This document shows positions 37,553-40,057 of a DNA stretch of 44,204 nt, in pieces. A model generated the notes under the pieces. That model worked only from the letters and a program-made list of their open reading frames with translations, made no database searches and was not told the DNA's origin. The stretch spans positions 1 through 44,204 of the forward strand of contig JAFTSO010000040.1 of the NCBI GenBank assembly GCA_017467265.1. The letters run 5' to 3'. Numbering within the stretch: position 1 is the first letter of the stretch; each line of letters begins with the position of its first letter. Source of the DNA: Clostridia bacterium (lineage in GTDB: Bacteria > Bacillota > Clostridia > Christensenellales > Borkfalkiaceae). A program made the translations under genes and the position numbers.

Positions 37553-38443
37553 TTACATTAACACTTTGGATAGGAAATCTTTCAGACGTTCGTCCTGCGG
37601 ATTTTCGAAAAATTCCTTGGGGGTATTTTCTTCTTTGATTACGCCCTCATTCATAAAGATTACGCGGTTTGCCACTTCCTTGGCAAAGCCCATTTCGTGC
37701 GTGACGACGACCATCGTCATACCCTCGTTGGCGAGCTCCGTCATAACCTTTAACACTTCGCCGACCATTTCAGGATCGAGCGCGGACGTCGGCTCGTCAA
37801 AGAGCATTACGTCGGGGGACATAGCGAGGGCGCGCACGATCGCAATACGCTGTTTTTGACCGCCCGAAAGGGTGGACGGATACACGTTCGCCTTGTCTTC
37901 CAACCCGATGCGTTTGAGTAGGTCCATCGCGGTTTGCTCGGCTTCTTCCTTGCTCTTGAGCTTGAGTTTTACAGGCGCGAGCGTGATATTTTGCAAAATC
38001 GTCAGGTGGGGGAACAGGTTGAACTGCTGGAACACCATGCCGATCTTTTGACGGTGCTTATCCAAATTTTTTTGTATGGATTTTTCCGTCGCCTTTTCCT
38101 TTTTACGCAGTTCTTGGTAGGCGAGTTTGGCTTCGTTGACAGCCGTTTGGTCGTATTCGTCCGTGCCTTTTTTCGCTTGCAGAGCTTTCCAAGCGGCTTT
38201 CCACTCTCTGCGCTCCTTTTTGAACACAGTTTCGCCGTTGAATTCGATGCGTCCCGAGGTGGGTTCTTCGAGCCTGTTCAGACAGCGAAGAAAGGTGGAC
38301 TTGCCGCACCCCGACGGGCCGATGACCGCCACCACGTCCCCTTTGTGGATATCGATATCCACGCCTTTGAGAACCTCTAATTTGCCGAAATATTTATGCA
38401 GATTTTTTACAGAAAGGACGGTGTTTTTTTCTTGCTGTTCCAT
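37553..38443 (-). CDS. Polar amino-acid ABC importer ATPase with a charged helical insertion
   Basis: A 296-residue GlnQ/HisP-like ATPase, compared with about 240 in the family. The start is the ATG at 38443, 11 bases after AAGGAG; the frame also opens at a GTG touching that site. Walker A is GPSGCGKST (about 42-50), the Q-loop is [12 protein letters not shown] (about 136-147), the signature is LSGGQKQR (near 190) and Walker B is [12 protein letters not shown] (near 213-224). Between Walker A and the Q-loop, residues about 74-124 are an extra Lys/Glu/Ala-rich, helix-forming block absent from normal GlnQ. It is the last gene of the operon with the permease and binding protein. Confidence 0.92.
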
Positions 38444-38444
38444 A

Positions 38445-39116
38445 TTATTTGTCACTCCTTGAAAGTTTCTTTTCGAGTAATCGCAGCAGGAAAGTCAAAA
38501 TCAGCACCACGACCAAGTACATAACGGCGACGATGATATACGGAGCAAACGGTTCGCGTGTTCTGCCGATGATATTATCTGCCACCTTTGTTAAATCCAT
38601 AACGCCAATCGTACCGATGATAGAGGTTTCTTTGATTAAGGCAATAAACTCGTTGCAGAACGGGGGGAGTGCACGTCGAATTGCCTGCGGTAAAACGATA
38701 TGCCATAACACCTGCAATTTGCTCAACCCCAAGGAACTGCCTGCCTCTAATTGTCCGTCGTCAATGCTCTCCAAGCCGCCGCGGATAATTTCGGCTACGT
38801 ACGCGCCCGAATTGATACCGAAGGTCAAAATGGCGATCGTCATATCGGAGAGCGAAACGAGAATAACCAGCCACATCAGCAGCATTTGGACGTAGACGGG
38901 CGTGCCGCGAAAGATCGTGATATAGACGTCACAGATTCGGCGCGCAATTTTCAATTTGCCGTATTTTTTGTTCGTATATTTAATCAGCGCAACGATAATA
39001 CCGATTACGCAGCCGACTAAAATAGCGCCTAAGGAAATGGTCAAGGTCGTTTGCAACCCTTCAAAATACCATTTCCAACGGTTGCCTTTTAGTGCAATTC
39101 TAAAATTTTTCCACAT
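38445..39116 (-). CDS. Polar amino-acid ABC importer permease
   Basis: A 223-residue HisM/GlnP-type inner membrane permease with about five helices. It starts at the ATG at 39116 after AAGGAG; the longer frame has no ribosome site. The ATPase-docking EAA loop, [22 protein letters not shown]-like at about 140-160, is intact (Glu, Ala, Gly and Leu-Pro in place). Only one permease gene is present, so it should form a homodimer. The stop lies one base before the ATPase ATG, and a terminator-like hairpin lies upstream, between it and the binding protein gene. Confidence 0.93.
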
Positions 39117-39138
39117 ACAATCTCCTTTTACATACAAA

Positions 39139-39163
39139 AGCAGAACCGAAAAACGGCTCTGCT
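39139..39163 (-). terminator. Attenuator-like hairpin between binding protein and permease genes
   Basis: On the minus strand, AGCAGAGCCG and CGGTTCTGCT form a perfect 10-bp stem with TTTTT as loop, followed by TTTTG. In an operon this probably cuts most transcripts after the binding protein, giving more of it than of permease and ATPase. Confidence 0.7.
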
Positions 39164-39185
39164 ATCGTACAAATGCAATGATGGA

Positions 39186-40007
39186 TTATCTTGCAAGTTT
39201 TTTCGCGGGCAATTCGTCGATTACGACAACGTCGCATTTGCCAGCTTTTAATGCGCTGTAAGCAAGAGGACCGTCGTCATAGGGGATAACCTGTGCGCCC
39301 GTATCCTTCAATACACCGCTGTTGATAGCGTCTTCGATCATAATATGTCCCGTCGTACCTTTCTGCACGCCGATTTTCTTGCCTGCCAGCTGGTCAAGGG
39401 TGCTGTATGCCTGATCTTCCTTGCTGATGATGCATTGAACGGTGGAGAAATAGGGATCGGAGAAATCAACGAATTCTTTGGGCTCGTCGTAAATCGTCAT
39501 GCCTGCCGCACCGAGTGCGTTGTCCTCAACGGCGAGCTTTGCAACGATAGAGTTGAACGCTACGTCGTGGAAACTGACTTGCATATTCATTTCTTCTGCA
39601 ACGAGCTGCATAATGTACATATCCGCACCTACAACGTTGTTGTCATTGTCACGGAATTCAAAGGGAGGGAATTCTGCGTTGGTGTAAACCTGCAACGTAC
39701 CTGCGGTATTGTCGGAAAGGTCGGGGAATTCCAACGTGACGGTAGGGGTGGTGTCCGAATCGATCGCGTCGTAGTAGCTGATGATCGTTGCGATATCGAT
39801 CTCTGCAATTACGGCGTTCATCGCCGACAAAATCGCTTCTTTGTTGGTCGAATTTTTACCGATCGCAAGTCCGTATTGTTCGTTGTCTTCCGATTCGATT
39901 GCCGTTGCAACGTATTTTGCGTCATCCTTACCGCAGCTCGAAAAACTCATCGCTGCGAACGCTGCCGTCGCTGCCAAAGTGCATGCCAAAACTTTCTTAA
40001 TGCTCAT
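39186..40007 (-). CDS. Substrate-binding lipoprotein of the amino-acid importer, apparently circularly permuted
   Basis: A 273-residue SBP_bac_3-like lipoprotein. The ATG at 40007 follows AAGGAG; a signal peptide leads to the lipobox FSSC (Cys25). Residues about 104-273 match the family from its usual start (VYTNAEFPPFEF) through VDFSDPYFSTVQ and KKIGVQKGTTG to AGKCDVVVIDELPAKK, then stop. The normal last ~50 residues, which should read like YGIAVxKGNxELLxAINxAL..., are absent there. They appear instead at residues 32-82 (EQYGLAIGKN...AVIAEI), joined by a 20-residue acidic linker. The carboxylate-binding Arg usually found in GMT-x3-R is replaced (GMTIYDEPKEFVDFS). The order suggests a natural circular permutation. 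Confidence 0.9.
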   Translation of the reverse strand: MSIKKVLACTLAATAAFAAMSFSSCGKDDAKYVATAIESEDNEQYGLAIGKNSTNKEAILSAMNAVIAEIDIATIISYYDAIDSDTTPTVTLEFPDLSDNTAGTLQVYTNAEFPPFEFRDNDNNVVGADMYIMQLVAEEMNMQVSFHDVAFNSIVAKLAVEDNALGAAGMTIYDEPKEFVDFSDPYFSTVQCIISKEDQAYSTLDQLAGKKIGVQKGTTGHIMIEDAINSGVLKDTGAQVIPYDDGPLAYSALKAGKCDVVVIDELPAKKLAR

Positions 40008-40057
40008 AATGTTAATCTCCTTTTGATAACGTTTTGTTTTTTTCATTTCGTCTGCTT

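Follow-up and report, generated by a model that had tools for sequence, protein, structure and literature searches.

We analyzed a 44,204-nucleotide contig (the window; GenBank accession number JAFTSO010000040.1, assembly GCA_017467265.1) from a Clostridia bacterium of the Borkfalkiaceae. Its minus strand carries a gene for a lipoprotein of the SBP_bac_3 family of substrate-binding proteins (SBPs), in an operon with a cognate permease and ATPase, as in polar amino-acid ATP-binding cassette (ABC) importers. We divide such proteins into the N-terminal part of lobe I (A), lobe II (B) and the tail (T), the conventional order being ABT. The window protein departs from this order in that its tail precedes its body. 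We are highly confident that it is a naturally circularly permuted SBP lipoprotein, serving a polar amino-acid ABC importer that has one permease. The features of the locus are as follows.

39186 to 40007, minus strand: SBP_bac_3 lipoprotein gene, 273 residues, read here as circularly permuted (T-A-B); ATG at 40007, stop at 39186-39188
39936 to 40007, minus strand: signal peptide, residues 1-24; lipobox recognized by eye
39933 to 39935, minus strand: lipobox Cys25, the presumed first residue of the mature protein and site of its lipid anchor (sequence and alignment A2)
39762 to 39917, minus strand: T segment, residues 31-82, equivalent to the C-terminal end of a conventional SBP (tail hidden Markov model (HMM) and structural model)
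39699 to 39761, minus strand: linker, residues 83-103, from the old C-terminus to the old N-terminus (rotation scan)
39444 to 39698, minus strand: residues 104-188, forming the A segment: lobe I, N-terminal part, as far as the first hinge strand
39189 to 39443, minus strand: residues 189-273, forming the B segment: lobe II as far as the IDELPA motif with its Asp
39140 to 39162, minus strand: hairpin followed by a U-run, between the SBP and permease genes (folding against shuffles)
38445 to 39137, minus strand: amino-acid ABC permease (BPD_transp_1, GlnP-like); ATG at 39116
37553 to 38455, minus strand: GlnQ-like ATPase of an amino-acid ABC system, longer by about 47 residues in the stretch from Walker A to the Q-loop

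Chain order of the binding protein

Cys25 is invariant in all 18 rows of alignment A2. A preliminary description of this DNA had placed EQYGLAIGKN and AMNAVIAEI after the lipobox, and both do lie downstream of this residue. It had also assigned the displaced segment to residues 32-82, followed by a 20-residue acidic linker and a body that stops early. The segment is present, with its limits corrected to about residues 31-82, and the chain does end early, at ...CDVVVIDELPAKKLAR. A linker does join the old termini, but it comprises 21 residues and is acidic only in part. The 69 bases between the stop codon and the permease ATG carry a ribosome site and a hairpin, as described.

Standard profiles recognize the body. 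PF00497 is matched at 69.7 bits (gathering threshold 26.4), yet by residues 105-218 only. TIGR01096 aligns residues 98-266 with positions 19-182 of 250, and its last 68 positions find no match after the body. The comparison sets, with 11 loci set aside, comprised 74 conventional SBPs and 48 proteins in the chain order of the window protein, all of them distinct. A tail HMM, trained solely on the C-terminal segments of the 74 conventional SBPs, matched the N-terminal segment in all 48 window-order proteins, with scores of 8.3-77.8 bits. The window segment scored 12.9 bits and the maximum among 960 shuffled segments was 8.2 bits, which bears out the earlier statement that this segment resembles a normal SBP_bac_3 end. 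When the 48 segments were reversed, 47 were matched, with a top score of 5.3 bits. The lowest scorer of the 48, L015, lies just above the control.

Moving the N-terminal segment to the end of the chain, a check proposed in the preliminary description, increased the window protein's score against a full-length profile of conventional SBPs by 15.4 bits. A gain was seen in 48/48 window-order proteins (median 34.7 bits), each above its 10 shuffled controls. A scan of all rotations in four proteins placed the best cut in the linker, within SDTTPTVTL. All nine NCBIfam models listed for the window protein also gained on reordering, by 2.7 to 11.3 bits; for TIGR01096 the score rose from 107.8 to 118.3 bits and the coverage from 19-182 to 19-236. 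Neither arrangement reaches the curated TIGR01096 cut-off of 256.35 bits, and thus no substrate can be assigned. Taken together, the order swap, the tail HMM and the related proteins support the interpretation as a circular permutation.

Predicted fold and proposed working

AlphaFold2 predicted a confident single fold for the window protein (predicted local distance difference test score, 95), in which the two-lobed SBP fold is recognizable and the T segment forms a strand-strand-helix-helix unit. In an order-dependent alignment, model residues 76-249 paired with the initial ~170 residues of solved SBPs, and the last ~55 residues of these were thereby left over for model residues 1-60. T would thus close lobe I. 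We take T to begin with the last strand of lobe II, with domain limits as in GlnBP, which would place the anchor on lobe II.

The sequence shows that T, the part completing lobe I in conventional SBPs, comes first in translation, right behind the presumed lipid-anchor Cys, and is tied by the 21-residue linker to the old N-terminus. The folded product would be an ordinary two-lobed flytrap that closes on its ligand and hands it to the permease. Its new termini would lie at the edge of lobe II and lobe I would be one continuous stretch, the membrane anchor having shifted from lobe I to lobe II. The protein would capture substrate for a polar amino-acid importer as conventional SBPs do, with its connectivity changed. 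Such a gene could arise by tandem duplication of an SBP gene and in-frame fusion, after which the first copy lost A-B and the second lost T. The old N-terminal lead-in persists in the linker, consistent with trimming after a duplication in tandem.

Chain orders in related bacteria

We built HMMs for the A, B and T segments from the conventional set and applied them to the open reading frames of 251 loci. The resulting rows, which include some loci entered twice, comprised 127 TAB, 86 ABT, 33 BTA, three ABTABT, two BTABTABTA, one BTABTA, one AB and one AT; without identical rows there were 98 TAB, 81 ABT and 32 BTA. In BTA proteins, lobe II comes right after the signal peptide, and the chain ends at or slightly past the first hinge strand. 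The (BTA)n proteins L066, L090 and L129 run on into the permease. In these arrays, B-T-A-B-T-A(-B-T-A), each unit could form a BTA fold, or the last A could join up with the first B-T. Permease fusions with a single unit occur for BTA (L214, L221, L224), TAB (L047) and ABT (L084). A fourth order, B2-T-A-B1, with the cut inside lobe II, was found at three loci of one family in another class (L300-L302; the B2 part of L301 was recognized by eye). The TAB gene of L037 (G657) contains one TAA within the profile match.

Genome searches were confined to the phylum of the window and scored few candidates per genome (mostly six), so that the counts are lower bounds. The class search (391 genomes, E 1e-40) found TAB matches in at least 37 genomes, the order being confirmed in all 37 with the segment HMMs. 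The same chain order is therefore present in related Clostridia, where the preliminary description had suggested looking for it. At least 34 of these genomes lie outside the taxonomic order of the window, in 11 families, with 16 in family f38, and at least 13 BTA proteins were among the matches listed. The phylum search (398 genomes) returned TAB matches from the window genome and from G746 of the same class; it returned none from other classes, where more divergent cases would be missed at the threshold. Those classes contributed the three B2-T-A-B1 loci and a tandem ABTABT protein (G1318), in which the match fell on the junction. Six genera in the first 251 loci contain more than one chain order, including the window's own genus (ABT and TAB), and no single genome covered by these searches was seen with two.

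TAB and ABT genes can occupy the same genomic slot. In genus g205, L252 and L253 (TAB) and L255, L256, L257, L259 and L122 (ABT) have three upstream neighbor families in common; between L252 and L255 these neighbors show 90, 82 and 63% identity, the permeases 74% and the ATPases 85%. L254 (TAB) and L258, L260 and L261 (ABT) of this genus lie outside the slot. In family f82, L270 (TAB) and L271 (ABT) have four common upstream genes (59-78%), with identities of 71% for the permease and 88% for the ATPase. The occurrence of both orders in one slot ahead of permease and ATPase, in two syntenic sets, points to rotation in place. Signal peptides are alike in the same-slot TAB and ABT genes, and the L252 linker closes with the lead-in found ahead of A in L255.

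These sets bear on the possibility that T was acquired from another SBP gene by fragment transfer, making the protein a chimera, which we regard as unlikely. The T segments of the TAB proteins L252, L253, L086 and L254 of g205 are nearest to that of L255 (72, 66, 75 and 82% identity) among the 12 ABT proteins of the set, L255 being the occupant of the slot of L252 and L253, and the old lead-in is preserved in the linker. A chimera is conceivable for the window clade, where both T and body have diverged widely from ABT proteins (38.7% identity to L019), and for L270, whose T is slightly nearer to that of the non-syntenic L269 (66%) than to that of the same-slot L271 (64%).

A FastTree tree of 176 reordered rows and an IQ-TREE tree of 92 rows, the latter a thinned set drawn from 222, each require 12 changes among five labels, two of which are tandem arrays. 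The starred branches of the IQ-TREE tree force at least five changes for TAB, six for ABT and three for BTA, counting gains and losses. Approximately unbiased (AU) tests rejected a single clade both for TAB (p 0.00015) and for BTA taken together with tandem BTA (p 0.00065); the groups were set by chain order and not by the tree, but a tree had been seen beforehand. One ancient inherited permutation, with the conventional order persisting elsewhere and no recurrent rotation, is accordingly very unlikely: 38 of the 40 TAB rows in the 92-row tree do sit in two large groups, but the 12 changes in both trees, the two AU rejections and the syntenic slots common to TAB and ABT speak against it. We are highly confident that Clostridia, gut-bacterial relatives included, underwent such rotations several times and with more than one position of the cut.

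The FastTree tree also places three ABT proteins, L060, L061 and L105, within a TAB group (starred; 11 TAB and 3 ABT rows). The stretch after T in these proteins ends PEGLKLSWNV, resembling TAB linkers such as APEGLKLTWDLS in L118. They are most simply read as having reverted from TAB to ABT. Alternatively, an ABT ancestor with that extension may have given rise to several TAB gains, and the branching there lacks a firm order in the IQ-TREE tree. L304 (G302:C11:24000-31000), in which two adjacent ABT genes each carry a similar linker-like C-terminal extension, may mark a stage between the ABT and TAB orders. A broader scenario, which we hold to be reasonably probable, is that the SBP_bac_3 gene of Clostridia was repeatedly rotated in place, with separate gains of TAB and of BTA, B2-T-A-B1 in another class, one or more reversions of TAB to ABT in which the former linker stayed behind as a C-terminal scar (L060, L061, L105, L304) and tandem arrays as a stepping stone, all new cuts lying in or beside lobe II and moving the tether from lobe I to lobe II.

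A chance resemblance or added domain at the N-terminus of a truncated SBP or pseudogene is scarcely credible. The window copy has lost a near-invariant Arg, as such decay would allow, but the tail signature is found in 48/48 homologs of the same chain order and the predicted fold is confident. The TAB genes appear from sequence comparison to be under purifying selection, with dN/dS of 0.03-0.10 for T in the 9 of 14 TAB pairs with finite dS. The window gene is the sole SBP_bac_3 match in its genome (79% complete), where the tail search found only the window protein itself, the next match having an E-value of 0.6. Operons are retained as well: of the distinct loci covered for 1200 bases or more downstream of the SBP gene, 92/93 TAB, 18/21 BTA and 75/78 ABT cases have permease and ATPase next, and in the remaining three BTA loci the SBP is fused to the permease. 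An assembly or binning artefact, conceivable since the sources are mostly metagenome-assembled genomes (MAGs), has a negligible probability given TAB in the single-contig genomes G847, G875 and G994 and in 98 distinct proteins.

Several observations weigh against the permutation or its proposed details. The tail score of the window protein itself is modest (12.9 bits), and many of the dS values exceed 1, near saturation. Residue 176 is Pro in the window protein and Arg in all 17 other rows of alignment A2; the Arg presumably holds the ligand carboxylate, as in HisJ and GlnBP, and Pro176 may reflect another ligand, decay or a MAG base error. Some VIA-align rows place the T helices on the chain start (model range from 28-31), which may be an effect of the order-dependent aligner, and the presumed position of the membrane anchor on lobe II uses the domain limits of GlnBP. 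The affinity of the L270 T segment for L269 counts here too, and no intermediate directly connecting ABT and TAB genes was found at the DNA level. The Pro176 codon is CCC (39480-39482, minus strand).

Operon context and known binding proteins

The SBP gene has a second in-frame ATG at 40046 on the minus strand. The stretch 39117-39188 (72 nt), which contains the hairpin, folds with a z-score of -5.48, and 0/200 shuffles were as low; a hairpin with a U-run, here at 39140-39162, is an arrangement as for lower expression of downstream genes. The permease exceeds the TIGR01726 cut-off (68.3 versus 42.2). The ATPase is best matched by GlnQ PRK09493, at 310.7 bits, below that model's cut-off of 379. 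It has 86 residues from Walker A to the Q-loop, compared with a median of 39 in 111 measured ATPase rows. At least 79 residues are present there in 17 rows, all from TAB loci (duplicates counted; the two longest are possibly pattern errors).

The window protein resembles GlnH, HisJ, ArtJ and T. maritima ArgBP (PF00497), which we take to be cluster F (type II) proteins, in its homologous body, fold, lipobox and operon with a GlnP-like permease and a GlnQ-like ATPase. It differs from conventional PF00497 SBPs in its T-A-B order, in a linker in place of free ends and, probably, in the location of its anchor and termini along the edge of lobe II. In the GlnPQ tandem domains (6h30), T of the first and A-B of the second give TAB within one chain, and profile positions 19-239 match residues 187-395. 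However, GlnPQ has two complete conventional domains in tandem, whereas the window protein is a single rotated domain.

In a search of open-access papers, with subscription papers and preprints not covered, the one natural permuted binding protein found was the Treponema pallidum protein Tp0684 (TpMglB-2), which carries a lipid anchor and likewise belongs to an ABC system (PMC4990184). According to that paper, Tp0684 still binds ligand and changes shape, and its authors propose a link to membrane tethering and place the topology also in Gram-positive gut bacteria (PMC4990184). Probably unlike the window protein, it is a Type Ic (cluster Bc) protein, a sugar binder of Type I (cluster B), and its cut differs, with the first N-lobe strands at the C-terminus and a fourth hinge crossing added. 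Among the matches listed for the window protein, sequence and fold matches were all SBP_bac_3-type or other type II proteins, Tp0684 lying outside the comparison.

Since the matched Pfam and NCBIfam models span the body only, the rotated order escapes annotation, and annotators should be warned that chain order is invisible to these models. Close homologs (75% identity) of differing chain order, together with the same-slot pairs, are natural controls that address the effects of chain order on folding, hinge motion and docking to the ABC importer. With several rotations, tandem arrays and a possible reversal in one class of bacteria, the duplication-and-trimming route becomes directly testable.
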